Origin: Desulfuromonadales bacterium
GTDB taxonomy: Bacteria > Desulfobacterota > Desulfuromonadia > Desulfuromonadales > BM103
Assembly: GCA_014860225.1 (NCBI GenBank)
Contig: JACZKE010000068.1
Location: 1 to 39,135, forward strand
DNA length: 39,135 nucleotides
Reading direction: 5' to 3'
Below are positions 7,236 through 24,504 of the stretch, piece after piece. The notes beneath the pieces were generated by a model. It was not told where the DNA came from and made no database searches. It saw only the letters and a program-made list of their open reading frames with translations. Positions within the stretch are counted from its first letter, which is position 1, and each line of letters opens with the position of its first letter. A program made the position numbers and the translations under genes.

Positions 7236-8348
7236 ATGGCGCCAAAAGAAGAATTCATTCCCAAGTGGATTGCCTGGGAGTCAACCCAACGTTGCAACCT
7301 GAACTGCGTGCACTGTCGTTGTTCATCGGACATGGATGCGGCGGTCGGTGATTTCAATACGCAAGAGGCCTTCAAGCTGATTGACGATATCTGCGAGGTC
7401 AGCCAGCCGGTTATGGTGCTTTCCGGCGGCGAACCGCTATTACGTAAAGATATCTTCGAGATTGCCCGCTATGGCACCAGCAAGGGCTTGCGTATGTGCA
7501 TGGCCACCAACGGCACCCTGATCACCGACGAAGTCTGCCGGCAAATGCTGGAAGCCGACATCAAGATGGTTTCGCTGTCTCTCGACGGTTCGACCGCCGC
7601 GATTCATGACGACTTCCGCTCCTGTCCAGGCGCCTTCGAGGGTGTGGTCCGCGCTGCCGAAACCCTCAAGCGCAACGGAATCAAGTTCCTGATCAACTCG
7701 TCATTTACCAAGCGCAACCAGCAGGACATCGGTGCGACCTTCAAGGTCGCCAAAGAGCTCGGTGCCACCGCCTGGTACATGTTCATGATCGTGCCCACCG
7801 GGCGCGGCGAAGACATCATGAACGAGCTGATTTCCAAGGAAGACTACGAGGAGATACTCTCCTGGCATTATGCGCAGGAAAAGGGTGAAGACGAAATCCT
7901 GATGCGACCGACCTGCGCGCCGCATTACTACCGGGTCGTGCCGCAGATGGCCAAGGCTGAGGGTGTCGACTTCAAGCGCCGCAGCCTGACTTTCTCCACC
8001 GGCGGAGGCAAAGGCTGCATCGCCGCGCAGACCATCTGTCTGATCGACTGCTTCGGCAATCTCAAGCCCTGCTCCTACTTCCACTCCTCGGTCGGCAACG
8101 TCAAGCAGGTGCCGTTCAAAGACCTCTGGTTCAACAGCAAGACCTTCAATGACCTGCGCGATTTCAAAAAGTACAAGGGCAAGTGCGGTGAGTGCGAATT
8201 CATCAATGTCTGCGGCGGTTGCCGCGCCCGCGCCGACGCTGTTTACGGCGACTACATGGCAGAAGAGCCCTTCTGCAACTACGTGCCGCAACGCACGCTC
8301 AAGCGCATGGAAAAAGAAGCAGCGGAGAATATGGCAAAGGCAAAGTAG
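7236..8348 (+). CDS. AhbD/NirJ-like radical SAM protein, probable heme-synthesis enzyme
   Basis: Radical SAM protein of 370 aa with the cluster motif CNLNCVHC (Cys20, 24, 27) in the context [18 protein letters not shown], then [10 protein letters not shown]-terminal auxiliary-cluster region contains [18 protein letters not shown] and a final PFC. This overall pattern, with CGGCRARA and AEEPFC, matches the AhbD/NirJ group. AhbD decarboxylates the two propionates of Fe-coproporphyrin III to give heme b. Location directly before hemE and hemH supports a tetrapyrrole role. It is not HemN-like: the motif spacing and C-terminal region differ. The AGGAG site is 9 bases before the ATG. The exact substrate is inferred, not shown. 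Confidence 0.82.
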
Positions 8349-8366
8349 GACTGATAAAACGAAAAA

Positions 8367-8418
8367 CGTGAAAAGTGATTGGTGGTAACCTCTCACTTTT
8401 CACTTTTCACTTTTCACG
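8367..8418 (+). repeat. TTTTCAC heptamer repeats forming a hairpin
   Basis: CGTGAAAAGTGA at 8367-8378 pairs perfectly over 12 bp with TCACTTTTCACG at 8407-8418. The right side holds three tandem copies of a 7-base unit (TTTTCAC), so several registers of pairing are possible. It fills the gap between the radical SAM gene and hemE, and ends about 9 bases before the hemE ribosome site. Confidence 0.7.
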
Positions 8419-8437
8419 ATAATTTAGGAGGAGTTGC

Positions 8438-9475
8438 ATGTCTCAAGAATACACTTTTATCAAGGCTTGCTGGGGTCAGCCGACCGACTATGTTCCCGTC
8501 TGGCTGATGCGCCAGGCTGGCCGTTACCTGCAGTGTTACAAGGATGTCCGCGCCAAGGGCGGCGGCACCTTCCTTGACCTCTGCAAGGATCCGGAGCGGG
8601 CGGCTGAAGTGACCATCCAACCGATCGACATCCTCAATGTTGATGCGGCGATCCTCTTCTCCGACATCCTGACGCCGATCGAGCCGATGGGAATGAAGCT
8701 CGATTTCGTTCCTGGTCCTGTGTTCGAAAAGCCGATCCGTACAGCTGCTGATGTTGATGCCCTGGTGGTGCCGGAAGACATGGCTGAAGCTGTCTCTTAT
8801 GTTCCGGCAATCATCAAGCGCCTGCGGGTTGCCTTCGAGGGCCGCGTTCCGCTGATAGGTTTTGGTGGCGCGCCGTTTACCCTGGCCTGCTACATGGTTG
8901 AAGGACACGGCAGCAAGGACTTCGCCTCTCTCAAGCAGATGATGTATTCCGACTTCCCGCTTTACGACGCCCTGATGAAGAAGATCACCGAGATGGATCG
9001 GCGCTACCTCAACATGCAGATTGAAGCTGGTGCCCAGGCGATCCAGATTTTCGATACCTGGGGTGGCCTGCTCGCTCCGCACGATTATGAGCGCTACATC
9101 CTGCCTTACGTCAAAGAGTTGATCAATGGCCTCAATCGCGACGGCATCCCGGTCATCTACTTTGTCAAGAATGGCGGTACCATGCTCGAGCTGGTCAAGG
9201 AAGCCGGCGCCGATGTGCTCGGCCTCGACTGGCACGTCAATCTGGGCAAGGCCCGCGATATCATAGGTGATGATGTTGCTGTTCAGGGTAATCTCGACCC
9301 GACTGTACTCTACGCGCCGAAGGATCACATCGAGCGTGAGGTGCAGCGGATTCTCGACGAGAACGCCGGCCGGCCGGGCTTCATCTTCAATCTTGGCCAT
9401 GGCATTCTCCCCACGGTGCCGCCGGAGAACGCCATTCACATGGTCGAATGCGTGCACCGGTTGAGCGGTAAATAG
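8438..9475 (+). CDS. hemE: Uroporphyrinogen decarboxylase
   Basis: Converts uroporphyrinogen III to coproporphyrinogen III by four decarboxylations, in the cytoplasm. The 345-aa protein has the family signature MRQAGRYL (Arg25, Arg29), the catalytic aspartate in ILFSDILTP (Asp76), GFGGAPFTLACYM, and NLGHGILPTVPPENA at the C-terminal end. GGAGGAG gives a strong ribosome site. It is flanked by the AhbD-like gene and hemH in the same orientation. Confidence 0.97.
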   Translation: MSQEYTFIKACWGQPTDYVPVWLMRQAGRYLQCYKDVRAKGGGTFLDLCKDPERAAEVTIQPIDILNVDAAILFSDILTPIEPMGMKLDFVPGPVFEKPIRTAADVDALVVPEDMAEAVSYVPAIIKRLRVAFEGRVPLIGFGGAPFTLACYMVEGHGSKDFASLKQMMYSDFPLYDALMKKITEMDRRYLNMQIEAGAQAIQIFDTWGGLLAPHDYERYILPYVKELINGLNRDGIPVIYFVKNGGTMLELVKEAGADVLGLDWHVNLGKARDIIGDDVAVQGNLDPTVLYAPKDHIEREVQRILDENAGRPGFIFNLGHGILPTVPPENAIHMVECVHRLSGK

Positions 9476-9510
9476 GAACGCGGAACGCGAGCATTTTTGG
9501 TTCTTAACCC

Positions 9511-9643
9511 AAGCGTAACGCCCGTTCGCTGCGCTCACTCAAGGCGCGAAGAAAAGCCAGGAAAGACGCGAAGAAAACCGGATTATTGTTGAATTAAAAA
9601 CTCTGCGTCTTTCTTTTATTCTTTGCGTCATTGCGTTACGCTT
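9511..9643. repeat. AACGC-type inverted-repeat element, copy 2
   Basis: About 133 bp bounded by a perfect 11-bp inverted repeat, AAGCGTAACGC at 9511-9521 and GCGTTACGCTT at 9633-9643. Inside, AAAGACGC pairs with GCGTCTTT. Compared with the copy at 3783-3881 it has extra internal sequence. It lies between hemE and hemH, so it may reduce or process read-through. Confidence 0.7.
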
Positions 9644-9683
9644 TGACTGTTGGTCTTAGGCTCTTAATCTATGATTGTCACCT

Positions 9684-10661
9684 ATGAACCTCGATAAACC
9701 GACTGGCCTGGTGCTTCTGAACATGGGCGGACCGGACTCGTTACGAGCGGTCCGCCCGTTTCTCTACAACCTCTTCTCCGATCGCGACCTGATCCAACTC
9801 CCTGCCGGGGCTTTGCTGCAGAAGCCGTTCGCTTTCATGATCAGTCGCCTGCGGGCGCCGAAGGTCAAAGTGAACTATGCTTCCATCGGCGGCAAGTCAC
9901 CGCTGCTGGAGTGGACCGTCAAGCAGGCAGAGGGGACGGCCCGAAAACTCGGAAGTCAGGTCAAGCCGTTTGTGGCCATGCGTTACTGGGCCCCCCGGGC
10001 TGAAGAATGTCTGCGTCGCATGAAGCAGGATGGCATTGAGCAGGCGATTGTGCTCTCGATGTATCCGCATTACACAAGCGCCACCAGCGGCAGCAGCATC
10101 AAGGATTTCGAGACCACAGCCGCACGGATTTACCCTGAGCTCAAATACACCGTGATCAGCGAATGGTACAACTGGCCTGCTTATCTCGATGTCCTTGCCA
10201 ACCGGGTTCGTGAAGGTCTTGAGAAGTTTCACGAACTGGTACGCGATGAGATCCCCATCCTTTTTTCGGCCCACGCCCTGCCGCAGAAGTTTATTGATGA
10301 TGGCGACCCCTATCTTGAGCATGTCCTTTTTTCGGTCAGAGGGGTGATGGAACGTTTCGAAGAACGTCCCTGGCGCCTCGGTTTTCAGAGTCGCAGTGGT
10401 CCGGTGCAATGGATGGAGCCCGACACTCTGGACGTGCTGGATCAACTCGGTGCGGAAAAGGCTCCCGGGGTTTTGATCGTGCCGGTATCGTTTGTCTCGG
10501 ATCATATCGAGACGCTGCAGGAAATCGACTACGAGATGCGCATGCACGCCGAAGCGATCGGTCTCCCGCGTTTCGAAAGGGCCCCCTCATTGAACGACCA
10601 CGAGGATTTCCTGCAGGCATTGACCGACCTCGTGCTTGAGTCGGTGCAGGATGAGCGCTGA
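9684..10661 (+). CDS. hemH: Ferrochelatase
   Basis: Inserts Fe(II) into a porphyrin: protoporphyrin IX in the classical route, or coproporphyrin III in the CpfC variant. The protein is 325 aa from the ATG at 9684; a TTG three codons earlier is possible, and neither start has a clear ribosome site. It begins LVLLNMGGPDSL, carries the metal-binding histidine in LFSAHALP (His197), the YPHYTSATSGSS segment and a terminal SLNDHEDF. Sequence alone does not tell the protoporphyrin from the coproporphyrin enzyme. The zinc-ribbon ORF overlaps its stop codon. Confidence 0.95.
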   Translation: MNLDKPTGLVLLNMGGPDSLRAVRPFLYNLFSDRDLIQLPAGALLQKPFAFMISRLRAPKVKVNYASIGGKSPLLEWTVKQAEGTARKLGSQVKPFVAMRYWAPRAEECLRRMKQDGIEQAIVLSMYPHYTSATSGSSIKDFETTAARIYPELKYTVISEWYNWPAYLDVLANRVREGLEKFHELVRDEIPILFSAHALPQKFIDDGDPYLEHVLFSVRGVMERFEERPWRLGFQSRSGPVQWMEPDTLDVLDQLGAEKAPGVLIVPVSFVSDHIETLQEIDYEMRMHAEAIGLPRFERAPSLNDHEDFLQALTDLVLESVQDER

Positions 10662-10845
10662 GATGATTCCCTGTTTACATTGTGGCCAAATATTCGACCC
10701 GGACAACTTGCCGAACGATGCGGCTGTTGAAGCCGGTTTGATCCTGGCCACGGAACGTTACGGCGATGCCGGCAAGGTCTGTGCTAACTGTCTTGCCAGC
10801 CGCGGTCGTCTGGCGATGATGTATGATCCTTCCTGTCGTCATTGA
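10651..10845 (+). CDS. Small zinc-ribbon-like protein
   Basis: A 64-residue ORF whose ATG overlaps the end of hemH. It contains two cysteine pairs, CLHC and CANC, about 38 residues apart, plus a final Cys-Arg-His. This spacing suggests a single zinc-ribbon-like fold. No family was recognised. The tight coupling to hemH suggests cotranscription. An in-frame TTG at 10636 and an ATG at 10663 are alternative starts. It may be a small metal-binding accessory protein, but nothing direct shows its role. Confidence 0.55.
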   Translation: MSAEMIPCLHCGQIFDPDNLPNDAAVEAGLILATERYGDAGKVCANCLASRGRLAMMYDPSCRH

Positions 10846-11043
10846 AGCATGGTCTTGTCGCTATCGCTTTTACGCGTCTGTGACCCGCCTGTTACGTGCT
10901 GGAGCGAACGCTGATTCAGGTTGGCGCTGCGTCTGCAACTTTTGTCCTGTGTGACTTGCTTCCTTGTTGAGCAGTAAAGTAAACTGTTATTGTTTATGAG
11001 CCCTCCCTGCCGGGGGGTGTGGATAGAGGAATTCTTCGGTCTG

Positions 11044-11832
11044 ATGCGCGCCTTCTTCGAAAAAATCGGCTATGAAACTCTCGGGTTTCTGGAATCTTCC
11101 GGGCGGTTGGGCCTGTTCCTGGTGCGTACCGTCAAAAGTCTCTTCACTTCTTCCTTCAAACTTCATCCCGTGTTGCGCCAGGTGCATTTCATCGGTGCCC
11201 GTTCAACCTTTGTCATTCTGTTTACCGGCTTGTTCACCGGCATGGTCCTTGGCCTGCAAGGCTATTATACCCTGCGCAAGTTCGGCTCTGAGGGCTTCCT
11301 CGGCTCGGCAGTGGCCCTGAGCCTGATCCGTGAACTCGGTCCGGTGCTGACTGCGCTGATGGTTATTGGCCGGGCCGGTTCGGCGATCTGCGCCGAAATC
11401 GGCATCATGCGCAACTCGGAACAGATCGACGCCCTCGAATGCATGGCTATCGATCCGTTCCGTTACCTGATTTCTCCGAAACTGCTGGCCGGCATTTTTG
11501 CCCTGCCATTGTTGACGGCGTTTTTCGATGTGATCGGTATCTTCGGTGGTTACCTTGTGGGAGTCGGTCTGTTCGGCATCAATGCGGGGACCTATTTCCA
11601 GGGGATGTACTCGAGCGTGGTCTGGGCCGATGTCGAGATGGGGTTGGTGAAGTCACTGGTCTTTGGCCTGTTGCTGGTCTGGATTACGGCCTGCAAGGGT
11701 TTTTACCTGCACCTTGAACGATCCGGTGGCTTTGGTGCCGAGGGCGTCAGCCGCACGACGACGGATGCAGTCGTTCTGTCGTCGGTCAGCGTTCTGGTCT
11801 GGGATTACCTCATCAGCGCCCTGATGATGTGA
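11044..11832 (+). CDS. mlaE: MlaE family ABC permease (phospholipid transport)
   Basis: Inner-membrane permease of the Mla system, which moves phospholipids between inner and outer membranes. From the ATG at 11044 it is 262 aa, matching the usual length, and the start region MRAFFEKIGYETLGFLE aligns with other MlaE N termini. Several hydrophobic helices are visible; the conserved core includes SLIRELGPVLTALMVIGRAGSA and EIGIMRNSEQIDALE. The frame is open back to 10990, with an ATG at 10996 and a GTG near 11017 after a G-rich run; none has an ideal ribosome site. It heads the mla operon. Confidence 0.92.
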   Translation: MRAFFEKIGYETLGFLESSGRLGLFLVRTVKSLFTSSFKLHPVLRQVHFIGARSTFVILFTGLFTGMVLGLQGYYTLRKFGSEGFLGSAVALSLIRELGPVLTALMVIGRAGSAICAEIGIMRNSEQIDALECMAIDPFRYLISPKLLAGIFALPLLTAFFDVIGIFGGYLVGVGLFGINAGTYFQGMYSSVVWADVEMGLVKSLVFGLLLVWITACKGFYLHLERSGGFGAEGVSRTTTDAVVLSSVSVLVWDYLISALMM

Positions 11833-11848
11833 CGTGAGTAGTGGTGTT

Positions 11849-12664
11849 ATGATGGAAATGATGAATTCGCAAGGACATGACAATTCTACAGCCGTCATCG
11901 AATTGACCGGTGTGAAAAAGCGTTTCGGCCGGCAAATGGTGCTGCGCGGCGTCGACCTGGTTGTGCATGAGGGGCAGACGCTGGTAATCGTCGGTGCAAG
12001 CGGCCAGGGAAAGAGCGTGATCATCAAGCATATGCTCGGCCTGATTAGCCCTGACCGCGGCACGGTCAAGGTTTTCGGCCGTGATCTGAAACGACTCAAG
12101 CGCCGCGAACTCGACGAGATCCGCAGCAGCTTTGGTGTGCTCTTCCAGAACGCTGCGCTGTTCGATTCCATGAACGTCTACGACAACATCGCTTTACCGT
12201 TGCGCGAACGGACCCGGTTGAGTGAGGATGAGATCCGGGACAAAGTTATGGAAAAACTTTCGCTGATGGGGATGGAGAAGGCCGTGGAGAAGTTCCCTGC
12301 CCAACTCAGCGGCGGTATGCGCAAGCGGGTCGGGCTGGCGCGCGCTCTCATCCTTGATCCCAAAGTAGTGTTTTTCGATGAGCCGACCACCGGTCTGGAT
12401 GTGCACAAGAGCAACGAACTTTACCGGCTCTTTTATAACACCCAGCAGCAACTCGGTTACACGGCGGTGATCGTCAGCCATGATGTGCCGAAAATTTTCA
12501 AACTGGCCGACGAGGTTGCCCTGCTCGCCGAAGGCCAGGTCCAGGGATGTATGCCCCCAGACGATTTCCAGATGTCGGACCAACCCCTGATCCGGGCGTT
12601 CGTCGAGGAAACCATGGGGCAGCTCTATTTGAGTGTCGAAGAGGAAGCCAACTTTTATGCGTAA
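11849..12664 (+). CDS. mlaF: MlaF family ABC transporter ATPase
   Basis: ATP-binding subunit that powers the MlaE permease. Walker A is GASGQGKS, the Q-loop is LFQNAALF, the signature is LSGGMRKRVGLARAL, Walker B is VVFFDEPTTGLD, and the switch histidine is in VSHDV. It begins 16 bases after mlaE. Several ATG codons lie close together (11849, 11852, 11858, 11861) and a GTG at 11834; none has a convincing ribosome site, so the exact start is uncertain. The 3' end overlaps mlaD by 8 bases. Confidence 0.93.
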   Translation: MMEMMNSQGHDNSTAVIELTGVKKRFGRQMVLRGVDLVVHEGQTLVIVGASGQGKSVIIKHMLGLISPDRGTVKVFGRDLKRLKRRELDEIRSSFGVLFQNAALFDSMNVYDNIALPLRERTRLSEDEIRDKVMEKLSLMGMEKAVEKFPAQLSGGMRKRVGLARALILDPKVVFFDEPTTGLDVHKSNELYRLFYNTQQQLGYTAVIVSHDVPKIFKLADEVALLAEGQVQGCMPPDDFQMSDQPLIRAFVEETMGQLYLSVEEEANFYA

Positions 12665-13100
12665 ATTTAACCTTGAGATTGTGGTCGGCCTGTTCGTGGT
12701 CGTCGGTTTTGTCTGTTTCGCATGGCTCTCCGTGCGACTTGGCGATATCAGCCTGTTCGGTTCCCCGACCTACCAGCTCACCGCCAGTTTCGGCTCGGTT
12801 TCCGGCCTGAAGAGCGGCGCCATCGTTGAAATAGCCGGCGTCCCGGTCGGCAAGGTCGATGATATCCACTTTGATGCCACCAAGTACGAGGCGGTGGTCA
12901 CACTGGCGATCGACAACGGCATCACCCTGCAGGAAGACAGCATCGCGTCAGTGCGTACGGCGGGCATTATCGGTGACCGTTACATCGACATCTCTCCAGG
13001 CGGTTCCGATGTCGAGATCCAGGATGGTGGCAGGATCATCGAGACAGAGTCGGCGATCAACCTGGAAGAACTGGTCAGCAAGTATATCTTTGAAAAGTAA
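12657..13100 (+). CDS. mlaD: MlaD family MCE-domain protein
   Basis: Membrane-anchored substrate-binding subunit of the Mla complex, 147 aa. One N-terminal membrane helix (about residues 5-25, IVVGLFVVVGFVCFAWLSV) is followed by a single MCE domain with SGLKSGAIVEIAGVPVGKV and SVRTAGIIGDRYIDISPGG. The short C-terminal tail ends in LEELVSKYIFEK. The ATG overlaps the mlaF stop, with GAGGAAG about a dozen bases upstream. A small hairpin, GAGCCG-ATAAC-CGGCTC, lies between it and mlaA at 13102-13118. Confidence 0.93.
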   Translation: MRKFNLEIVVGLFVVVGFVCFAWLSVRLGDISLFGSPTYQLTASFGSVSGLKSGAIVEIAGVPVGKVDDIHFDATKYEAVVTLAIDNGITLQEDSIASVRTAGIIGDRYIDISPGGSDVEIQDGGRIIETESAINLEELVSKYIFEK

Positions 13101-13136
13101 CGAGCCGATAACCGGCTCCGGGAAAAGGAACGGACG

Positions 13137-13910
13137 ATGTTGAATATTCATAAACTGATCCTGAGCCTGACGCTCGTTCTGCTGTTCGGTGTTTGCGGCG
13201 TGACCTGGGCGGCCAGCGACGCCGAGGAGACAACGTCTGACAGCCTGTCGGCAACTGAGCAGGATTGGACGCAACTGGACGACGATGAAGAGGAGCTGGT
13301 CGTCTGGGATCCGATCGAACCGTTCAATCGCGGTATCTTCTGGTTCAACGACAAGCTCTACTTCTATGCGTTGAAACCCGTGGCGCGCGGCTACCGGGCC
13401 GCGCTACCTGAGCCGGTGCGCGAATCAGTGGGAAATTTCTTTCATAACCTTGCCGCTCCGGTAAGGATCGCCAACGCCCTGCTGCAATTGAAGGGTCGCA
13501 AAGCGGTCGATGAATCTCTCAAGTGCGTATTCAATTCAACCTTCGGTCTGGCGGGTCTCTTCGATCTGGGGGTCGGACTGCCAGCCAACACGGACGGCGA
13601 GGACTTTGGTCAGACGCTGGGACACTACGGGACTTCTGCCGGATTCTATCTGGTGATACCGGTTCTGGGTCCATCGAATGCCCGGGATGCGGTTGGAAGG
13701 GTGGCCGATTCACTGGCGCATCCGGTGTCGTCCCCTTATTATCTGCAGATGAAGCAGCTCGAGGTCATCGGCGTGCGTGTCCACCAGACAGTCAACCATC
13801 TGTCGCTCGACAAGGATACCTACGAGTCGATCAAGAAGGAGGCACTTGATCCTTACCTGTTCGTGCGTAATGCTTATATGCAGAACCGGGCAGCCAGGAT
13901 CAACAAGTAG
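13137..13910 (+). CDS. mlaA: MlaA (VacJ) family lipid-transport protein
   Basis: Outer-membrane component that removes misplaced phospholipids from the outer leaflet. The 257-aa precursor has a signal peptide ending near TWA-AS (residue 25). The MlaA signature follows: DPIEPFNRGIFWFND, then LAAPVRIANALLQLKG and DFGQTLGHYG. E. coli MlaA is a lipoprotein, but no clear lipobox is present here (the only N-terminal Cys follows Val), so membrane attachment may differ. AAGGA precedes the ATG. Here it lies inside the mla operon, unlike the separate mlaA of E. coli. Confidence 0.93.
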   Translation: MLNIHKLILSLTLVLLFGVCGVTWAASDAEETTSDSLSATEQDWTQLDDDEEELVVWDPIEPFNRGIFWFNDKLYFYALKPVARGYRAALPEPVRESVGNFFHNLAAPVRIANALLQLKGRKAVDESLKCVFNSTFGLAGLFDLGVGLPANTDGEDFGQTLGHYGTSAGFYLVIPVLGPSNARDAVGRVADSLAHPVSSPYYLQMKQLEVIGVRVHQTVNHLSLDKDTYESIKKEALDPYLFVRNAYMQNRAARINK

Positions 13911-13944
13911 ATGCCCCGGAAACGGGTCTGAAAGAGGTATGACT

Positions 13945-14559
13945 ATGCGATGCTTTAAAATTTTGATACTAATATCCTGCTGGCTGTCACTATGCGTGCT
14001 CCCGGCGTACTCTGCCGCCTCGCCGAAAGCACAGGTCCAGGCGACGGTGGATCAGGTGATCGACGTGCTGCGTGATAAACAACTTCAGGGAGAGCCGCGC
14101 CGGCAGACTCTCAGCCGCATGATTCGTGCCCGGTTCAACTTCAACATCATGTCGCAACGCACCCTCGGCAAGTACTGGAGGACTGCAACCGAGGCTGAAC
14201 AGGAGCGTTTCGTGTCACTCTTCTCCGAGCTTCTTGAGGCGAGCTACATCGGTCGCATCGAGGACTACAGTGATGAAACCGTCAGCTACGGTGAGGAAAA
14301 GATCGAGGAGAACCGTGCCGACGTCGCGACGACGGTCCACAGTGGCAATACCCATATTCCCATCGATTACCGTCTTGTGCTGAAAGGGGATGACTGGTTT
14401 GTTTATGACGTCGTGATCGAGGAGGTCAGCCTGATCAGGAACTATCGCAGCACTTATGGCGAGATCGTGCGCAAGGAAAACTTCTCAGGTCTGTTTAAAC
14501 GCATGGAGGAGAAGATCGCGGAGCTTCGCCAGTCATCAGGAGAGACGACAGGCCAATGA
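13945..14559 (+). CDS. mlaC: MlaC family periplasmic phospholipid carrier
   Basis: Periplasmic shuttle between MlaA and the MlaFED complex. A signal peptide (to about PAYS-AA) precedes the Tol-tol/MlaC domain, with LGKYWRTATEAEQERFVSLF, SYIGRIEDYSDETV and a VYDVVIEEVSLIRNYRS segment. I prefer the ATG at 13945 because AGAGG lies 7 bases upstream; an ATG two codons earlier sits too close to that site. The mature protein is about 180 residues, typical for MlaC. The stop codon overlaps the ATG of the next gene. Confidence 0.92.
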   Translation: MRCFKILILISCWLSLCVLPAYSAASPKAQVQATVDQVIDVLRDKQLQGEPRRQTLSRMIRARFNFNIMSQRTLGKYWRTATEAEQERFVSLFSELLEASYIGRIEDYSDETVSYGEEKIEENRADVATTVHSGNTHIPIDYRLVLKGDDWFVYDVVIEEVSLIRNYRSTYGEIVRKENFSGLFKRMEEKIAELRQSSGETTGQ

Positions 14560-15062
14560 TGAACGTTCTGCAGCCATTTGAAAACGCCTGCCTCGGCGAT
14601 GACTGCTCCGAGCGACTCTGCAGGGAGATGAAGCGGGAGCTCGGCTTCTTCAGCTTTCTTGCAGAGACTGAACTCGAGGAAGTCAGCCCGTATTTCAGCT
14701 GCCGCAGGGTGAAGGCCGGAGAGAACGTCTGGATATCGGGAGACACCTGCACCTATGTCGCCTTCATCGTCTCCGGCCGAGTGCAGCTCAAGGTGGACAC
14801 GGAGTTCCCCGGCAAGCAGGTGGTGGTGGGGGTCTTCAGCCGCGGCGCTGCTATCGGGGTCAGCTGCACAGTCGTCCAACGGCCCAGAAACAGTACAGCC
14901 CGGGCCATTGAGGATACCGGACTGATTCTCATCACCCAGGAGAATTTCGACAGATTGATCGACAGGTACCCGCGCCTTGGCGTCAAGCTCCTGCAGGGGA
15001 TGCTGCTTTCTGAAACGACCCGCCTGCACAAAGCTTATACGCGCCTGGCCTCCATCTTCTGA
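14556..15062 (+). CDS. Stand-alone cyclic-nucleotide-binding domain protein
   Basis: 168 aa with one Crp-type beta-roll domain (about 30-150): a hydrophobic segment reads LGFFSFLAETELEEVSPYF, followed by VWISGDTCTYVAFIVSGRVQL and FSRGAAIGVSC. There is no C-terminal helix-turn-helix, so it is not a Crp/Fnr-type DNA-binding regulator. The usual phosphate-binding RXA motif is only loosely represented (NSTARA). It is translationally coupled to mlaC (ATGA overlap), so it likely acts on, or with, the Mla system. A second ATG lies one codon downstream. Confidence 0.8.
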   Translation: MMNVLQPFENACLGDDCSERLCREMKRELGFFSFLAETELEEVSPYFSCRRVKAGENVWISGDTCTYVAFIVSGRVQLKVDTEFPGKQVVVGVFSRGAAIGVSCTVVQRPRNSTARAIEDTGLILITQENFDRLIDRYPRLGVKLLQGMLLSETTRLHKAYTRLASIF

Positions 15063-16927: not shown

Positions 16928-18079
16928 CTATGCTGCGGAACGTGTATTGCGTAAATGTAAAAGGACCAGCGCAGTGGCCATACTCAGCCCCGCACAGACA
17001 AACAGTACATCCAGGCCGAACCAGTCGCCAATATAGCCTAACATCAGAGATCCTGCAAAGATTCCCGTATCAATTCCTCCGGTAAAAATCCCGGTTGCCT
17101 TGCCGCGGATTGCGGCCGGCTCATCACGGACGGCCATAGTGTTCAACAGCGGAAAGAGCAGGCCGTGGCCGATTCCGGAAAGAATCCCGGCAGCGCAGAG
17201 TGTCACCTGGTTGTACGTGAAGGGCAGGAGGAAAAGTCCAGCCATGTACAAGGCGATGCCGTAGGGCAGAATGCGCTTCTCACCCAGAGAGTCTGCCAGC
17301 CAGCCGCCGACGAAGCGCACGGCGATCGCCCCTCCCGAGTAACAGAAAAAATATACCGAGATAAAGCCGAGGTTGCGTTGTTCGGCCAGCGGAGCCACAA
17401 AGCCACCGGTTGCCGCGACGCCGAAACCGAACAGCAGCGCAAGCAGCCCAACCGCAATGAACTTTTTGCGTTTGAGCAGGCCAAAGAAGGTGGTCTCTTG
17501 CGTCGACCTGGGTTCCCGGCAGCTTTCCTGAAGTGGCTGGTGGACGAATAGTGCAACGGAGGAGAGGGCGCCAGCGGTTAGAAAGAGACCGAAAAAACCA
17601 AAGTGCTCAAGGGTGATTTCAGCAACGACGGGACCGATGGCGATACCGAGCAGCCCTGAGATGCCGAACATGCCGATTCCCTCATTGAGACGATCCGGCG
17701 GCAGGATGTCTGCCATGAAGGTGAACACCGCGGTGAAACAAATGGCCAGCCCTACGCCGTGGACAGCACGGAGCAGCAGGAAGAGGGGATAGTTTGCACC
17801 GAGTGGATCCTGAATGAATATGTAGAGAAAGGGCGAAACAAGCATGAGGAGGCTGCCAACGGTATAGCTGCGCTTGCGGCCTATGCGGTCGATCATTTCG
17901 GCTACCCACGGGCGACATAGCGCCGACGCCAGGGCGAATACGCCCATGATCACACCAATATCTCCCTGGTCGCCGCCGTGATCAAGGATGTAGAGAGGCA
18001 GTAGAAAAAAAGCGCTGAAACTGGCGGTATGACAGAGGTTGGCCAGTGCCATAGCCCAGAATGCGGGAGTGTAGACCAT
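16928..18079 (-). CDS. MFS transporter
   Basis: Major facilitator superfamily protein of 383 aa with about 12 hydrophobic helices. Motif A between helices 2 and 3 reads DRIGRKRSY. The two halves are separated by the loop around SCREPRSTQET. The sequence resembles drug or metabolite exporters; no substrate can be assigned. No good ribosome site precedes the ATG. It is followed after 14 bases by the PlsC-like gene. Two small palindromes lie just upstream of the start and may be operator sites. Confidence 0.88.
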   Translation of the reverse strand: MVYTPAFWAMALANLCHTASFSAFFLLPLYILDHGGDQGDIGVIMGVFALASALCRPWVAEMIDRIGRKRSYTVGSLLMLVSPFLYIFIQDPLGANYPLFLLLRAVHGVGLAICFTAVFTFMADILPPDRLNEGIGMFGISGLLGIAIGPVVAEITLEHFGFFGLFLTAGALSSVALFVHQPLQESCREPRSTQETTFFGLLKRKKFIAVGLLALLFGFGVAATGGFVAPLAEQRNLGFISVYFFCYSGGAIAVRFVGGWLADSLGEKRILPYGIALYMAGLFLLPFTYNQVTLCAAGILSGIGHGLLFPLLNTMAVRDEPAAIRGKATGIFTGGIDTGIFAGSLMLGYIGDWFGLDVLFVCAGLSMATALVLLHLRNTRSAA

Positions 18080-18091
18080 TGAGATGTATCC

Positions 18092-18116
18092 GTTTAGTAA
18101 ACAGTTCTTTTAGAAC
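18092..18116. promoter_or_regulatory. Paired palindromes upstream of the MFS gene
   Basis: GTTTAGTAAAC at 18092-18102 and GTTCTTTTAGAAC at 18104-18116 are adjacent perfect palindromes (5-bp half-sites), 13-37 bases from the MFS start. They could be operators for a repressor. No regulator gene is adjacent, so this is tentative. Confidence 0.35.
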
Positions 18117-18232
18117 ATCAAAATTGCGAGATTGAAATGATCGAACTTTACAGGACAATACGCACTTCTTGGTGCTTTGGTGGCATGGGGTTAGAGAACC
18201 AAACAATTAAGCCTTATAAACTATAGAGTCGT

Positions 18233-19237
18233 TCAGGCTGAAGTGGCGTTGCCCTGTCCGTTGGCTTTCGGCAGGTGGACCAGAAAAGTGGTCCCCTCGT
18301 CGGCACTGCTGGTTACCTCCACCTTGCCGCCGAGGATGTCAACCAGCAGCTGAATGCTGTGCAAACCGAGACCTCGATTTCGGCTCTTGGTAGAGATTCT
18401 GCTCCGGAAGATTTTTTTGCGGACCTGCTCAGGGATCTCTCCGGGGTTGTTGACAGTAAAAACAGCCTCGTCTCCAACCTCCTTGCAAGCCATCCGGACG
18501 GTCCCCGCTGGTGGTGTCGCCTCAAGGGCATTCTTGATCAGGTTGCCAAGAATTCGGGTCAGAAGTGCCGGGTCGCTCTGCAGCAAAAAATCTTCGACCG
18601 GTTCTGAGAGGACAAGATTCCGGTTTCCGACGCATTGATGATGCCGGTAAATCGCCAGCAGGGTGTCCAAAAGAGGTCGGACCTGCAAATACTCGGCGTT
18701 GACAGTCAGTTTCCTGTTTTCGGCAGCGCTTAAAATCTGCTGAGTCTCGATTTCGTCTATGATGTGTTCGGTAGTTTCTTCAAGGAGCTTGGTAACCTGC
18801 TGTTTGTCTTGCAGATCCCCGTCCTGGAGCAGCTCGATAAAACCACGCAGGCTTCCGGCCAGGTTGAGTAAATCATGAAAAAACAGCCGTTCAAGCAGGC
18901 GGCTCCGCTCCACGTTGGACTTGAATTTGTCCAGCAGAATCGTTACAAGCAAGAAGAAACCTAGCCGCACTGTCATGTTCCAGTATAACGCCCAGATCAG
19001 CTGGTAATTATGTCCCGCTGTGATCTCAGCAAACAGCCATACTGCAGCAGCCAGCAGGGAAGCAAAAATACCAAGCGTCAGACCATACCCCCAGGTCAGC
19101 CAGAAGATCGGTGCTAAATAGAAGATCGAAAAAGAGAGCTCGGCACCGCTGAGCACGTCGAGGAGACCCAGCAGGGGGATAACAAGAACACCACAGAGTG
19201 GTTTGCATGCAGAGCGAATGATGCGCCAAAGTTCCAA
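18233..19237 (-). CDS. Orphan membrane histidine kinase
   Basis: 334 aa. The first about 105 residues hold four hydrophobic helices with no separate sensor domain. The dimerisation helix has ERLFFHDLLNLAGSL: His121 followed by Asp and, at +4, Asn125. The catalytic domain shows NLIKNALEATP (N box, Asn236) and RGLGLHS (G2), with a short lid. The start is TTG at 19237, chosen because AGGTGG precedes it by four bases on the minus strand. No response-regulator gene is next to it, so its partner is elsewhere. It is followed by the MFS gene 150 bases on. Confidence 0.88.
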   Translation of the reverse strand: MELWRIIRSACKPLCGVLVIPLLGLLDVLSGAELSFSIFYLAPIFWLTWGYGLTLGIFASLLAAAVWLFAEITAGHNYQLIWALYWNMTVRLGFFLLVTILLDKFKSNVERSRLLERLFFHDLLNLAGSLRGFIELLQDGDLQDKQQVTKLLEETTEHIIDEIETQQILSAAENRKLTVNAEYLQVRPLLDTLLAIYRHHQCVGNRNLVLSEPVEDFLLQSDPALLTRILGNLIKNALEATPPAGTVRMACKEVGDEAVFTVNNPGEIPEQVRKKIFRSRISTKSRNRGLGLHSIQLLVDILGGKVEVTSSADEGTTFLVHLPKANGQGNATSA

Positions 19238-19343
19238 GTTGCCACCTATGGATAGTAAGACAGAGTGCTAACTGATATTAGTGCAAACACATAAGCTATG
19301 AAAACAAGATTCTTTAAGCCTGCCTGACTCTTCCTGAGCCGGG

Positions 19344-19370
19344 TGCAAATCCGACAGGTTGACCCATATT
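19344..19370. repeat. Diverged copy of the 27-base repeat at the window start
   Basis: Matches positions 4-30 at 23 of 27 bases (TGCAAATCCG and CCCATATT are shared). It lies in the gap between the divergent orphan histidine kinase and pepN, about 80 bases before the pepN ATG. Confidence 0.5.
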
Positions 19371-19451
19371 ACAGGGGGATTGCCCTTTCTACATGTGCAG
19401 AATGCGTGGTATCTTGCTGTTGATATAAATTACAAAAGGAAAAGGTCACAG

Positions 19452-22094
19452 ATGAAACACGCATTAAAAATGATCCGTCTTGAAGATTATCGGCCGCCCG
19501 TATATCTGGTCGACACCATTGATCTCTACGTAGAACTTGAGCCCACATGCACCAGGGTGCGCGCCCGGCTGCAGGTGCACGTTAATCCGGACCGCCCGAA
19601 TTCGCAAGGGACGCTGCAGCTTGACGGCCGGCAACTGCGGCTGCTGCACGTCATGCTCGATGGCAGGGTACTGTCGGCAGACGAGTATATTATGGACAGC
19701 GAAACGTTGACGATTCCCGGTGTACCGGAGCAGTTTGCCCTGGAGACGCTGGTAGAGATTAACCCGGACGCCAATACGGCTCTCGAAGGGCTTTACCTGG
19801 CGAGCGGCCTCTATTGCACCCAGTGCGAAGCCCAGGGCTTTCGCAAAATCACCTATTATCCGGATCGGCCTGACGTCATGGCTCGCTACACCACGACCCT
19901 GGTGGCAGATGCCGACAGCTCTCCGATACTGCTGGCAAACGGCAATCTGATTGACTCTGGAATCCTTGATGATGGCCGTCACTATGCCACCTTTGAAGAT
20001 CCATTCCTGAAACCGAGCTATCTGTTTGCCATGGTGGCGGGGCGACTGACTGTCATTGAAGACAGCTTCACCACCATGTCGGGTCGCAAGGTCGGTCTGC
20101 AGATTTTTGTCGAAGAGCGTAATCGTTACAAATGCGATCATGCCATGGCCTCACTGATCAACGCCATGCGCTGGGATGAAGAAACCTTTGGACTCGAATA
20201 TGATCTGGATGAGTACAAGGTTGTCGCCACCGATGATTTCAACATGGGAGCGATGGAAAACAAGGGGCTGAACGTCTTTAATTCCAAGTACGTCCTGGCG
20301 CGGCCCGAGACGGCTACGGATGCCGACTTCCAGGGTATTGAAGGTGTCATCGGCCACGAATATTTCCACAACTGGACCGGCAACCGGGTCACTTGCCGGG
20401 ACTGGTTCCAGCTCAGTCTCAAGGAAGGTCTGACGGTTTTTCGCGACCAGGAATTCTCCGCCGACATGGGATCAAAGGCTGTCAAGCGGATCAGTGAGGT
20501 GCGTTTGCTGCGCAACGCGCAGTTCCCTGAAGATGCCGGTCCCATGGCTCATCCGGTGCGACCCGAGTCGTACATTGAGATCAACAACTTCTATACGGCC
20601 ACGATCTACAACAAAGGGGCTGAAGTCATTCGCATGTATCAGACCCTGCTCGGCAAACAGGGCTTCCGGCGTGGGCTGAATCTCTATTTCCAGCGGCATG
20701 ACGGCCAGGCAGTGACTACGGATGATTTCTTTGCTGCCATGACCGATGCCAATGATGTCGATTTCAACCAATTCAAGCGATGGTACAGCCAGGCAGGGAC
20801 GCCGGTCCTCGATATCAGCGGTGTTTATGACGAGGCCGCCAAAGAGTTCCGTCTGCACGTCCGTCAGACCTGCCCGGAAACTCCGGGACAGGCTGATAAA
20901 CAACCTTTCCTGATCCCGCTGACGGTGGCCCTGCTTGATCCGGCCGGTCATAATCTGCCGTTGCAATTGGCCGGCGAAGGATCCGCGCCAGAAGATTCCC
21001 TGACATTAAGGGTTGTCGCTGCTGAGCAGACCTACACTTTTATCAATGTTCCGCTGAGCCCGGTTCCGTCTTTGTTGCGTAACTTCTCGGCACCGGTCAA
21101 AGCTCGTTACCCTTACAGCAGAGAAGAACTGGCCTTCCTGTTTGCCCGCGACAGTGATACGTTCAACCGTTGGGAGGCCGGACAGCGCCTCGCAACCGAT
21201 GTCATGCTTGAGATGATTGACGACTTCGGGGCCGGCAGGCAGCCGGAGGTCCCCGGGGATTTCCTGACCGCTTTCCGTTGTGCCTTGACCGACAAGGCTG
21301 CTGATCCGGCCTTGCTTGCGCTGGCGCTGACATTGCCCGCCGAGATGGAATTGGCGGAAGCCATGACCATCGCCGACCCTGGAGCTATTCACATGGCCCG
21401 GGAAGTCTTGCGCAAGGCTTTGGCTCGGGAGCTGCAAGGTGAGTTCAATGCAGTCATGCTGGCTATGCAGGACAAGGGACTTTATTCTCTGCAAGCCCGG
21501 GCAATCGGCAGGCGTAGCCTGAAAAATCTCTGCCTCTCCTACGTAACGCTCTTGCCGGATTCCGGGATCCGGCAGGCGTGCTTTGAACAGTTTACCGAGT
21601 CCGACAACATGACGGATCGTATGGCGGCGCTGACCTGCCTGGTGTACAATCGTCTGCCGAAGTGGCAGGAGGCTCTGGCTGCATTTTATCACCAGTTTCA
21701 GGACGATTCCCTGGTGATCGATAAATGGTTCAGCCTGCAGGCAAGTGCCCCCCGCCAGGAGACCCTGGCCAAAGTCAAGGAGTTGATGGAACATCCGGCC
21801 TTCACCATGCGCAACCCGAATCGTGTGCGCGCCCTGATTGGAGTCTTTGCCCACGGCAATCCGGCGTGTTTCCATGATCTGTCAGGTGACGGATATGCCT
21901 TCGTTGCCGACCGGGTTCTGGAACTCGACGCGCTCAACCCGCAGGTGGCTGCCAGGATGATCTCGCCTTTAAGCCGCTGGCGGCGTTATGATAGCGTGCG
22001 TCAACGATTGATGCGCAGCCAGCTGGAACGCATTCAGGCACAGGAGAATCTGTCCACGGATGTCGGCGAGATTGTGCAAAAATCATTGCAATGA
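19452..22094 (+). CDS. pepN: Aminopeptidase N (M1 zinc metallopeptidase)
   Basis: Cytoplasmic exopeptidase that removes N-terminal residues from peptides, 880 aa compared with about 870 in E. coli. The substrate-binding GAMEN motif is at 266-270 and the zinc site HEYFH at 302-306, with the third ligand Glu325 in LSLKEG. The frame is open back to 19359, but the ATG at 19452 has AAAGG 6 bases upstream and gives a family-typical N terminus. It is followed after 9 bases by the SDR gene and then hemY, so it begins a likely three-gene operon. Confidence 0.96.
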   Translation: MKHALKMIRLEDYRPPVYLVDTIDLYVELEPTCTRVRARLQVHVNPDRPNSQGTLQLDGRQLRLLHVMLDGRVLSADEYIMDSETLTIPGVPEQFALETLVEINPDANTALEGLYLASGLYCTQCEAQGFRKITYYPDRPDVMARYTTTLVADADSSPILLANGNLIDSGILDDGRHYATFEDPFLKPSYLFAMVAGRLTVIEDSFTTMSGRKVGLQIFVEERNRYKCDHAMASLINAMRWDEETFGLEYDLDEYKVVATDDFNMGAMENKGLNVFNSKYVLARPETATDADFQGIEGVIGHEYFHNWTGNRVTCRDWFQLSLKEGLTVFRDQEFSADMGSKAVKRISEVRLLRNAQFPEDAGPMAHPVRPESYIEINNFYTATIYNKGAEVIRMYQTLLGKQGFRRGLNLYFQRHDGQAVTTDDFFAAMTDANDVDFNQFKRWYSQAGTPVLDISGVYDEAAKEFRLHVRQTCPETPGQADKQPFLIPLTVALLDPAGHNLPLQLAGEGSAPEDSLTLRVVAAEQTYTFINVPLSPVPSLLRNFSAPVKARYPYSREELAFLFARDSDTFNRWEAGQRLATDVMLEMIDDFGAGRQPEVPGDFLTAFRCALTDKAADPALLALALTLPAEMELAEAMTIADPGAIHMAREVLRKALARELQGEFNAVMLAMQDKGLYSLQARAIGRRSLKNLCLSYVTLLPDSGIRQACFEQFTESDNMTDRMAALTCLVYNRLPKWQEALAAFYHQFQDDSLVIDKWFSLQASAPRQETLAKVKELMEHPAFTMRNPNRVRALIGVFAHGNPACFHDLSGDGYAFVADRVLELDALNPQVAARMISPLSRWRRYDSVRQRLMRSQLERIQAQENLSTDVGEIVQKSLQ

Positions 22095-22103
22095 GGATAT
22101 TTG

Positions 22104-23039
22104 ATGAACGAAGAGCATAACATGCTGAAAGATGTTCTGATTGTCGGTTGCGGCGATATCGGTGTGAGGGTTGCACGTCTGGTACAACAGGCCGGTGGCA
22201 ATGTCATTGGACTGGCTCGTTCCGAGGCGAGTGCAGGTCGCTTACTCGCTCTGGGGATTGATCCGGTGATAGCGAATCTGGATGATGCGGCCTCGTTGAG
22301 TGCACTGCCGACCGCTGGTAAACTGCTTTTCTATTTTGCTCCGCCACCGGGAGGTGGTCCGTTTGACAGCCGCATGCGCAACTTCTGCCAGGCTGTTGAC
22401 GCCGCACAAGTGCCCGTCAAAGTCGTCTATATCAGTACCAGTGGGGTGTACGGTGATTGCCGTGGTGAGTGGGTTACAGAACAAACGCCGATCAACCCGC
22501 AGACCAGCCGGGCGCAACGTCGTGCCGATGCCGAGGCAACGCTGTTGCAGTGGGCAAAGAGACGTGCTGTACCAGTGACGATCCTTCGGGTGACAGGCAT
22601 CTACGGTCCCGGTCGCTTGCCCCTGGCGAGGATTCAGCAGGAACATCCGATTTTACGTGAGGAGGAATCCCCACCGACCAATCGCATTCATGCTGATGAT
22701 CTGGCCGACGTCTGTATCAGAGCCGCTGAAAAAGCAGTCGATGGCGATATCTTTAATGTCAGCGATGGTCAGCCGGGCACGATGACTCAGTATTTCAATA
22801 CCGTCTGCGATCTGCTCGGTCTGCCGCGATTGCAGCAAATAGACATGCAAGAGGCGAAACAGGTCATGAATCCGATGATGCTCTCCTACCTGACGGAAAC
22901 CCGGCGCATGGACAACCGCAAGATGATGGAACAGCTTGCGGTCACCCTGATGTACCCCGACCTCAGTTCGGGGCTGGAAAATGTCATCGCCCAGATGGAG
23001 CAACCGAACATGGGATATCTGGGCTCCGTTGGGCATTGA
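22104..23039 (+). CDS. Atypical SDR-family NAD(P)-binding protein (YeeZ-like)
   Basis: A Rossmann-fold protein of 311 aa with nucleotide motif VGCGDIGVRVARL near the N terminus and YISTSGVYGDCRGEW in the active-site region. The usual YxxxK of extended SDRs is not evident, which fits the atypical NAD-dependent epimerase-like group including YeeZ. The substrate is unknown. The ATG at 22104 has GAGG 7 bases upstream; a TTG one codon earlier is less likely. It lies between pepN and the porphyrinogen oxidase. Confidence 0.82.
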   Translation: MNEEHNMLKDVLIVGCGDIGVRVARLVQQAGGNVIGLARSEASAGRLLALGIDPVIANLDDAASLSALPTAGKLLFYFAPPPGGGPFDSRMRNFCQAVDAAQVPVKVVYISTSGVYGDCRGEWVTEQTPINPQTSRAQRRADAEATLLQWAKRRAVPVTILRVTGIYGPGRLPLARIQQEHPILREEESPPTNRIHADDLADVCIRAAEKAVDGDIFNVSDGQPGTMTQYFNTVCDLLGLPRLQQIDMQEAKQVMNPMMLSYLTETRRMDNRKMMEQLAVTLMYPDLSSGLENVIAQMEQPNMGYLGSVGH

Positions 23040-23094
23040 GACATAGGACGCACAATAGAATTTCAAGCGATTTTCGATAAACCTGGAGGATAGA

Positions 23095-24504
23095 ATGAGG
23101 CGAATTGCAATCATCGGTGCCGGGGTTTCCGGCTTAAGTACTGCTTATGCCATCGAACGACTTGCCGGTGAGGCAGGCCTGGAAGTTGAGGTCACAGTCT
23201 TTGAGCGGGAAGACCGTACCGGCGGTAAGATCTGGAGCATCAAGGAAGAGGGTTATCTCTGTGAATGGGGTCCAAACGGGTTCCTCGACAGCAAGCCGAT
23301 GACTCTCGAATTATGTGATCACCTCGGTATCCGCGGCCAACTGGAACGGTCCAACGACAATGCCCGCAAGCGCTATATCTACAGTGGCGGAATTCTCAAC
23401 CGTCTGCCGGAAAACGGGCCGATGTTCCTGCAATCGAAACTGATAAGCTGGCCAGGGAAAATTCGACTGGCCCAGGAATTCTTCAAACCGAAGCGCAGCG
23501 ATGGCGTTGATGAAACATTGGCTGATTTCGCCCGGCGCCGGCTCGGTGCTGAGGCTCTCGATAAATTAATCGGACCGATGGTCTCCGGGATTTTTGCCGG
23601 CAACCCGGAAACCATGAGTCTGAAAAGCTGTTTCCCGCGCATCCATGAGCTGGAGCAGGAGTATGGCGGGCTGCTCAAGGCCATGATGAAGATGGCCAAA
23701 CAGAAAAAAGCCGAAGTCAAGGCCGGCAAGCAGGTGGCCAGCGCCGCCGGTCCGGCCGGAGTACTGACCTCCTTTGTCGGCGGCATCCAGGAGTTGACTG
23801 ACGCGACGGTCAATGCACTCAAAGGTCGTGTGCAGAATTGCAATGCCGTCACCGGCTTGAAAGCGATAGAAGGCGGCTGGGAGCTGCGTCTGGCTGATGG
23901 CTCCAACTTTGATGCCGAGGTCGTGGTCTCTGCCGCGCCGGCTCATGTCCTCAAGGAACTCACCTGGTCTTTGGATGGTGAGTTGTCAGAACTTCTCGCC
24001 GGCATCCCTTATGCCCCGATGAATGTCATCTGCTTCGGTTACGAGGAGGACAAGGTCGAACGTGATCTGAATGGCTTCGGTTATCTGATCCCGAAAAAAG
24101 AAGGCTGCGAGATCCTCGGCACCCTTTGGGATTCAAGTATTTTTCCGGCCCGCGCCCCGGAGGGACATGTCATGCTGCGTTCGATGATGGGCGGAGCGAC
24201 CAATCCCGCAGCGATAGAGTTGAGTGATGCTGAAGTCAAAGAGCGCACCATGGCCGAGCTTAAAAAGATCATGGGTATCAGTGCTGAGCCGGATTTTGTC
24301 CGGATTTTCCGTCACCGGCGAGCCATCCCCCAGTATATCGTCGGCCACGCCGAGCGGCTTGCTGCAATAGAGGTAAAACTCAAGGCACACGCCGGCCTGA
24401 TCCTGACCGGCAACGCCTTCTTCGGCATAGGTCTCAACGATTGCGTCAATGCCGCCAACAAGGCCGGCGAACAGGTCATTGCCCGTCTGCAGACTATCGA
24501 CTGA
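23095..24504 (+). CDS. hemG: HemY/CgoX-type porphyrinogen oxidase
   Basis: FAD-dependent oxidase of 469 aa. The FAD motif IGAGVSGLSTAYAIERLA is near the N terminus, then GGKIWSI and GPNGFLDSKP, with a C-terminal GNAFFGIGLNDCVNAA. The family takes either protoporphyrinogen IX to protoporphyrin IX, or coproporphyrinogen III to coproporphyrin III (CgoX). Sequence alone does not decide which. It is usually oxygen-using. The ribosome site GGAGG is strong. Its 3' end overlaps the convergent methyltransferase gene by 11 bases. Confidence 0.93.
   Translation: MRRIAIIGAGVSGLSTAYAIERLAGEAGLEVEVTVFEREDRTGGKIWSIKEEGYLCEWGPNGFLDSKPMTLELCDHLGIRGQLERSNDNARKRYIYSGGILNRLPENGPMFLQSKLISWPGKIRLAQEFFKPKRSDGVDETLADFARRRLGAEALDKLIGPMVSGIFAGNPETMSLKSCFPRIHELEQEYGGLLKAMMKMAKQKKAEVKAGKQVASAAGPAGVLTSFVGGIQELTDATVNALKGRVQNCNAVTGLKAIEGGWELRLADGSNFDAEVVVSAAPAHVLKELTWSLDGELSELLAGIPYAPMNVICFGYEEDKVERDLNGFGYLIPKKEGCEILGTLWDSSIFPARAPEGHVMLRSMMGGATNPAAIELSDAEVKERTMAELKKIMGISAEPDFVRIFRHRRAIPQYIVGHAERLAAIEVKLKAHAGLILTGNAFFGIGLNDCVNAANKAGEQVIARLQTID

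Follow-up and report, generated by a model that had tools for sequence, protein, structure and literature searches.

A 39,135-nucleotide stretch of DNA from a Desulfuromonadales bacterium (the window; GenBank assembly GCA_014860225.1, contig JACZKE010000068.1) carries a gene for an AhbD-like radical S-adenosylmethionine (SAM)/SPASM protein together with hemE, hemH and hemY. With modest confidence, we favor the view that this protein, of a kind referred to below as type B, replaces HemN and would act on iron-free coproporphyrinogen III, so that the steps would follow the order HemE, AhbD-like protein, HemY, HemH. That a whole AhbD-family clade, found in bacteria of the Desulfuromonas/Geobacter type and in 14 other families among 148 genomes, switched from coproheme to coproporphyrinogen III is a close call that leans slightly towards yes. 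The substrates, the order of the steps and the role of the iron-sulfur clusters are what we infer from gene content, synteny, the exclusion of other routes, clade structure, and diagnostic residues. An earlier note on the same DNA had proposed that HemY, acting as CgoX, oxidizes coproporphyrinogen III, that the ferrochelatase then inserts iron, and that AhbD finishes heme b.

True HemN was not found in the analyzed genome (3.94 Mb in 68 contigs, estimated completeness 100%; the window is part of contig C16). The HemN_C search gave a single match, a 376-amino-acid protein that is HemW, with 214 bits to E. coli HemW vs. 114 to HemN. This HemW has HIPFCRQKCPYCDF (CPYCDF, with the fourth Cys absent) at the site where HemN has HIPFCHKLCYFCGC. 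Similarly, TIGR00538 at 1e-30 retrieved the HemW protein alone from the genome, with 124 bits vs. a cut-off of 325, and a hidden HemN was rejected because both searches give HemW only. HemF was found in none of 21 genomes, the bacterium's own included, HemZ in none of 148 genomes of the phylum above the cut-off, and ChdC (PF06778) neither in the 21 genomes nor, in the phylum run, in the bacterium's own; all three were rejected as enzymes filling the step on these null searches. AhbC gave no match at E ≤ 1e-100 in the own genome, for which reason the siroheme (Ahb) pathway was rejected there; AhbA and AhbB were not searched for. AhbC, true HemN, and ChdC occur in none of the 26 type-B genomes among the 148. 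The absence of HemN and HemF that the earlier note had stated for the window extends to these genome searches, and the genome check that it proposed for chdC and ahbC found neither.

The AhbD-like protein has TIGR04545, the AhbD family, as its top NCBIfam match with 437.8 bits, under the curated cut-off of 500; NirJ2 is the runner-up with 310. The cut-off is reached in none of the 31 genomes of the order that were searched (the own genome and 30 relatives). Scores of 400 to 500 bits turned up in 15 AhbC-bearing genomes too, and the typing of AhbDs by this score was rejected, since all 15 of these low scorers, as well as G065 and G091, have His181; the types were defined by residue signature instead. 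The AhbD sequences read come from 94 of the 124 phylum genomes whose match is at least 400 bits. Position 181 is Tyr in 26 of these rows (type B, the window clade) and His in 68 (12 of group A, 22 of group S, G084, G091, G163, and 31 more), the His being present with or without AhbC in the genome. Its use as a marker was derived in this analysis and follows no published criterion. All 26 type-B rows also share V61, S63, S155, S156, M184, H211, R224, P225, G256, I267, D271, and S280. Furthermore, Y181, M184, H211, R224, and D271 recur in all 80 named loci, which are the best 80 of 552 relatives of the window gene and to which the locus counts below refer; the Geobacter and Geomonas loci L120 and L121 are type B. 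The counts leave out five divergent relatives in the alignment, which have Asn (G073 and the second copy of G091), Cys (the AhbC copies of G139 and G163) or Glu (G086) at position 181. Locus L160, on contig C4 of G091, has a pair of adjacent AhbD-related genes, of which one carries His181 and the other is divergent; a third copy lies elsewhere, and the genome has no AhbC match.

The radical SAM motif CX3CX2C of the AhbD-like protein, C20-C24-C27, is invariant in eight of eight aligned rows, and C227-C261-C279-C317-C320-C326-C329-C347 matches the eight-Cys SPASM motif, which in full reads CX20-33CX17CX36-37CX2CX5CX2CX17-35C (extract of PMC10452713). Against nine other AhbDs of the phylum, type B shows 39–46% identity. 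In a quick AhbD tree, 23 type-B rows are separated from the remainder by a branch with a Shimodaira–Hasegawa-like approximate likelihood ratio test (SH-aLRT) value of 100, with a program warning that this branch meets other long branches. The canonical AhbDs of AhbC-less genomes are scattered there among AhbC-bearing ones, which forces at least three changes, one of them perhaps an assembly gap. An AlphaFold2 model of the AhbD-like protein (predicted local distance difference test 88.5, predicted template modeling score 0.88) has positions 61/63, 155/156, and 181 on barrel strands 59–63, 151–157, and 179–184, and to judge from the radical SAM fold these positions probably face the active site. 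Foldseek retrieved general SPASM and viperin-type enzymes (BlsE, PqqE, anSME, and SuiB first), and tblastn of canonical AhbD against plasmids yielded mainly proteins annotated TIGR04053.

By score, by tree side, and by pocket residues, the window HemH resembles a protoporphyrin-type ferrochelatase. Coproporphyrin ferrochelatases (CpfCs) have Tyr or Phe as the proximal residue and human ferrochelatase has Met, and Tyr124 of Listeria CpfC binds propionate 2, which protoporphyrin lacks (extract of PMC9794026). The window protein has neither CpfC feature, with Met14 as the proximal residue and Ser138 at the position of B. subtilis Tyr125, the equivalent of Listeria Tyr124. This propionate-2 position is Tyr in B. 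subtilis, in all four ChdC genomes with HemH, in all 14 genomes with other AhbDs (nine of group A, G141, G170, G084, G149, and G091, with G149 included by score only), and in G078, G126, and G154. It is Ser in the human protein, in both HemN genomes, and in all 25 type-B genomes with HemH; the type-B genome G147 gave no HemH match. The Tyr-bearing set has Phe or Tyr as the proximal residue, while type B has Met in 20 cases and Leu in five, human ferrochelatase and both HemN genomes have Met, and E. coli has Leu. Propionate-4 residues do not discriminate: the equivalents of Tyr46 and Ser53 are present in nearly all rows, and at the Thr14 equivalent most rows have Gly, whichever kind they belong to. 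The G052 protein was excluded as stop-interrupted and that of G112 is an uninformative fragment; at L199, on contig C87 of G052, one in-frame TAG splits the HemH match into two pieces, which may be a sequencing error or a pseudogene. In the HemH tree, a branch with an SH-aLRT of 100 sets 19 coproporphyrin-type rows apart from all others, among them the window. Resolution is poor on the other side, where type B does not form a single group; the human, E. coli, and B. subtilis proteins are long branches. With phmmer, the window HemH scores 219.6 bits to the human chain vs. 113 to that of B. subtilis; the corresponding values are 107 and 175 for the ChdC genome G122, and 166 and 192 for the His-type AhbD genome G111.

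The window HemY, likewise by score, clade, and most residues, resembles protoporphyrinogen oxidases more closely than CgoX. Its nearest solved relative is the M. xanthus protoporphyrinogen oxidase (297 bits vs. 225 for B. subtilis), and in the test for CgoX the B. subtilis residue Asp65 corresponds to Asn61. Eight positions separate the coproporphyrin references (B. subtilis and four ChdC genomes) from the protoporphyrin references (M. xanthus, human, and three HemN-genome proteins). Among 20 type-B rows (without G052, which has no AhbD match, and the truncated G071), positions 93, 331, 342, and 350 are protoporphyrin-like in all 20 and position 61 in 18, the other two (G118 and G174) having His. 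The 11 His-type AhbD genomes are all coproporphyrin-like at 61 and 342, none has Arg93, and 331 and 350 are mixed. The HemY rows read leave out G044, G082, G147, G031, G141, and G170. A 19-row clade with B. subtilis (SH-aLRT 99) excludes the window. Deltaproteobacterial oxidases were placed with PgoX in a published tree (extract of PMC10740692).

If HemH and HemY act on protoporphyrin compounds, protoporphyrinogen IX must derive from coproporphyrinogen III, and the AhbD-like protein is the sole candidate for this among the proteins found. Since HemH and HemY resemble protoporphyrin enzymes and the AhbD-like protein lacks His181, the gap is more likely to lie between coproporphyrinogen III and protoporphyrinogen IX than between coproheme and heme. 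The coproheme route, with HemE, HemY as CgoX, HemH as CpfC, and the AhbD-like protein converting coproheme to heme b, is a possible but rather unlikely explanation. AhbD is the nearest named family, and the cluster cysteines are complete. AhbD terminates the coproporphyrin route in some organisms according to reviews (PMC7242693, section 18; extract of PMC10548856), so that the pathway idea of the earlier note is already in print, and the extract of PMC10548856 locates ahbD with hemY/hemH/hemQ or with ahbABC. Moreover, 12 phylum genomes, G091 among them, combine a His181-type AhbD with HemH and HemY and no AhbC; all 12 have coproporphyrin-type HemH residues, and they fit a coproporphyrin route ended by AhbD. 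Against this explanation in the window stand the protoporphyrin-like HemH and HemY and the Tyr at a position where 68 other AhbDs have His. The route thus fits other members of the phylum and is not favored in this lineage. The evidence on pocket residues, scores, and branches speaks against taking HemH for a coproporphyrin ferrochelatase and HemY for CgoX, as the earlier note did, and the AhbD-like enzyme, which it put last, probably acts at an earlier step. One finding that the note had named as able to overturn it was a functional HemN or HemF in the genome combined with HemH and HemY grouping with protoporphyrin enzymes: the resemblance to protoporphyrin enzymes was found, a HemN or HemF was not.

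In the favored scheme of HemN replacement, HemE would supply coproporphyrinogen III, and the AhbD-like enzyme would convert the propionates of rings A and B to vinyls via a 5'-deoxyadenosyl radical, with its SPASM iron-sulfur clusters serving as electron acceptors, to yield protoporphyrinogen IX. HemY would then oxidize protoporphyrinogen IX to protoporphyrin IX, and HemH would insert the iron. The chemistry of AhbD, hydrogen abstraction at the propionate beta-carbon and subsequent decarboxylation, resembles that of HemN (extracts of PMC11306076 and PMC10548856). Coproporphyrin that lacks iron or carries zinc undergoes almost no decarboxylation by the M. barkeri AhbD, for which a ligand close to the metal, of unspecified identity, has been inferred (extract of PMC11306076). 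The presence of Tyr in type B in place of the otherwise constant His181 would fit an iron-free substrate. G. metallireducens has, in addition to HemY, a HemG with 43% identity to the protoporphyrinogen enzyme of E. coli (extract of PMC2700814), which is consistent with an intermediate role of protoporphyrinogen IX in this group. It is very improbable that the AhbD-like enzyme accepts either coproporphyrinogen III or coproheme, with both step orders running. A characterized AhbD does form substrate radicals on iron-free coproporphyrin (extract of PMC11306076), but it scarcely goes on to decarboxylate that substrate, and position 181 splits the types fully in the rows read.

Several observations weigh against a type-B AhbD acting in place of HemN. 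The cluster cysteines are all kept and identity to other AhbDs reaches 39–46%, so that the simplest guess would be the same reaction. Tyr, too, is able to bind heme iron. His181 itself is no more than a candidate for the metal ligand of coproheme-type AhbD, and at position 272, a weaker second marker and ligand candidate, just 59 of the 68 His181 AhbDs have His. Coproporphyrinogen is not among the AhbD substrates described in the literature extracts. As for the ferrochelatase, Ser is not needed at the propionate-2 position, where the E. coli protein has Val. Type-B HemY is coproporphyrin-like at position 362 (Arg, 14/20) and 416 (Val, 15/20) and mixed at 91, Phe350 is also present in four of the 11 His-type genomes, and in the HemY tree the HemN genomes join the coproporphyrin clade ahead of type B (SH-aLRT 96). 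The protoporphyrin pathway is the one mainly encoded in Proteobacteria, but with the Deltaproteobacteria named as an exception (extract of PMC10740692). The HemH and HemY types may also mirror descent, as one AhbD clade and one branch each amount to approximately one evolutionary event. Finally, the type-B genome G093 (L136, L249–L268), of estimated completeness 100%, has no HemY match; in the 400 kb read out of its 3.5 Mb, nothing matched E. coli HemG and one HemY-like stretch of 22% identity turned up, a partial read that decides nothing.

The four genes lie in one orientation, and their families, as given in the earlier note, were borne out by Pfam and NCBIfam (Table 1). The URO-D (hemE), ferrochelatase (hemH), and hemY families each have a single copy in the genome at the thresholds used, all inside the window. 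There, hemY starts 12.4 kb beyond hemH, with MlaE-type transport and other genes between. Ten of the 26 type-B genomes, belonging to six families and all outside the window's order, have ahbD-hemE-hemH-hemY in an unbroken run (G057, G094, G129, G156, G158, G059, G096, G131, G107, and G071, where the contig end cuts hemY). Because of this contiguity elsewhere, the window hemY, 12 kb off, belongs to the gene set, as the earlier note had supposed. Among the named loci with room, 63 of 68 have a hemE start no more than 1.5 kb downstream of ahbD, 52 of 59 have hemH downstream, and 12 of 34 have hemY within 10 kb downstream. The closest named relatives of the window AhbD-like gene (best 80 of 552) are at most 96% identical and come mostly from bins or isolates of Desulfuromonadales, Desulfuromonas, Geobacteraceae, and 'Deltaproteobacteria'. 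In the order, the gene is found at E < 1e-120 in 27 of the 31 genomes; it is only fragmentary in G004 and G007, and G008 and G010 (87 and 82% complete) gave no match at that threshold.

This conservation also bears on the suggestion, which we regard as unlikely, that the AhbD-like protein performs another tetrapyrrole reaction and an unrecognized enzyme yields protoporphyrinogen IX. The step is indeed assigned by elimination, the TIGR04545 score is under the cut-off, and the genome has 14 radical SAM matches to this family. However, the neighborhood with hemE, hemH, and hemY is conserved, the gene occurs in 27 of the 31 genomes of the order, and among the 148 genomes it is never accompanied by AhbC, true HemN, or ChdC.

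Table 1. Heme synthesis genes of the window; positions are counted from its first nucleotide.
Feature	Position	Strand	Description
Type-B AhbD-like radical SAM/SPASM gene	7236–8348	+	370 amino acids; Radical_SAM and SPASM domains (Pfam); candidate coproporphyrinogen III decarboxylase in place of HemN
hemE, uroporphyrinogen III decarboxylase	8438–9475	+	345 amino acids; TIGR01464 410.9 bits (cut-off 303)
hemH, ferrochelatase, protoporphyrin (mitochondrial-like) type by sequence	9675–10661	+	TIGR00109 321 bits (cut-off 124.6); Met14, Ser138
hemY, flavin porphyrinogen oxidase, PgoX-resembling	23095–24504	+	469 amino acids; TIGR00562 343 bits (cut-off 97.85); Asn61, Arg93, Leu331, Gly342, Phe350

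For hemH, an ATG at 9684 is a likelier start than position 9675. A 64-amino-acid open reading frame with two CxxC pairs (10651–10845, + strand) overlaps its 3' end, and tblastn finds a match to it in 40 of the 80 named loci, −3 to 152 bases past the hemH match. A short repeat of CACTTTT units occupies 8391–8418, immediately 5' of hemE. The HemE proteins encoded beside the same AhbD-like gene (L045–L124) are approximately 65–75% identical to the window HemE in some loci and 78–97% in others, and their identity does not follow that of AhbD; exchange of hemE within the cluster is possible. Two loci in bins labeled Sterolibacterium and Chloroflexi (L086 and L111) have a type-B AhbD-like gene of 88% identity and are probably misbinned contigs.

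The survey of the phylum covered one set of 148 genomes, searched for AhbD, AhbC, ferrochelatase, HemY, HemN, HemZ, and ChdC. AhbC is present in 84 genomes; the 124 whose AhbD match reaches 400 bits or more divide into 79 with AhbC and 45 without. HemH or HemY was found in two of the 79 AhbC-bearing vs. 39 of the 45 AhbC-less AhbD genomes (Fisher p ~2e-23, overstated since the genomes are related). AhbD with neither AhbC nor HemH/HemY is found in G033, G039, G065, G108, G116, and G123 (62–99% complete; ChdC in G065). True HemN exceeds the cut-off in two genomes (G073 and G109). ChdC is present in six (G046, G048, G065, G086, G122, and G151), of which G048, G086, G122, and G151 combine HemH with HemY but lack an AhbD of 400 bits. 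HemH/HemY without an AhbD of 400 bits, AhbC, ChdC, or true HemN occurs in G052, G078, G112, and G154, and G126 has AhbC, HemH, and HemY but no AhbD. In G126, G084, and G149, AhbC stands alongside HemH and HemY, so these genomes possibly have two routes to coproheme; their HemH is coproporphyrin-type.

The Geobacter and Desulfuromonas relatives are cytochrome-rich, metal-respiring bacteria. If HemN replacement by type B is true, a missing step of their heme synthesis would be filled by an AhbD-family enzyme able to act on a porphyrinogen, which would be a third, non-homologous answer to the HemF/HemN step. It would also mean a hidden class of protoporphyrin-dependent heme synthesis, indistinguishable from the coproporphyrin route by gene content alone, and the presence of AhbD, HemH, and HemY would not be sufficient to infer the latter. 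The routes would then be separated by residue rules: the proximal and propionate-2 positions of HemH, position 181 of AhbD, and positions 61, 93, and 342 of HemY. No proposal of an AhbD-family replacement for HemN was found in the open PubMed Central (PMC) literature, as far as extracts of it go; the 2015 PNAS paper on the coproporphyrin route and Dailey 2017 lay outside this scope. A table for G. lovleyi lists a 'hemN' 27% identical to the Salmonella protein (extract of PMC3403914), which, if the genome analyzed here is a guide, may be HemW.

Compared with the AhbD heme synthase (TIGR04545; Methanosarcina barkeri, Desulfovibrio), the window protein has the same radical SAM domain and full eight-Cys SPASM layout and likely the same propionate-to-vinyl chemistry. 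The window clade differs in scoring below the NCBIfam cut-off, in forming a separate clade, in having no AhbC partner in the 148 genomes, and in being accompanied by a protoporphyrin-type HemH. Type B further differs from other AhbDs in having Tyr181 for His, His211 mostly for Phe, Leu, or Ile, Arg224 for Lys, and Asp271 mostly for Ser. With HemN (CgdH, the oxygen-independent coproporphyrinogen III dehydrogenase) the AhbD-like protein would share the proposed reaction, the position in the pathway, and radical SAM chemistry. However, it has a SPASM domain where HemN has HemN_C, for which Pfam gives no match in it, and blastp against E. coli HemN gives no hit at E ≤ 10. The AhbD-ended coproporphyrin route of the 12 survey genomes is alike in its HemE-type start, in HemY, HemH, and AhbD, and in the absence of AhbC, ChdC, and true HemN; there, HemH has Phe/Tyr together with Tyr and HemY is CgoX-like at most positions, whereas in the window HemH is protoporphyrin-like and HemY largely so. 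The classical protoporphyrin route (HemN/HemF, HemY/HemG, HemH) agrees with the window in the type of HemH and, as most residues suggest, in that of HemY, with the difference that the HemN/HemF step would fall to an AhbD-family protein.

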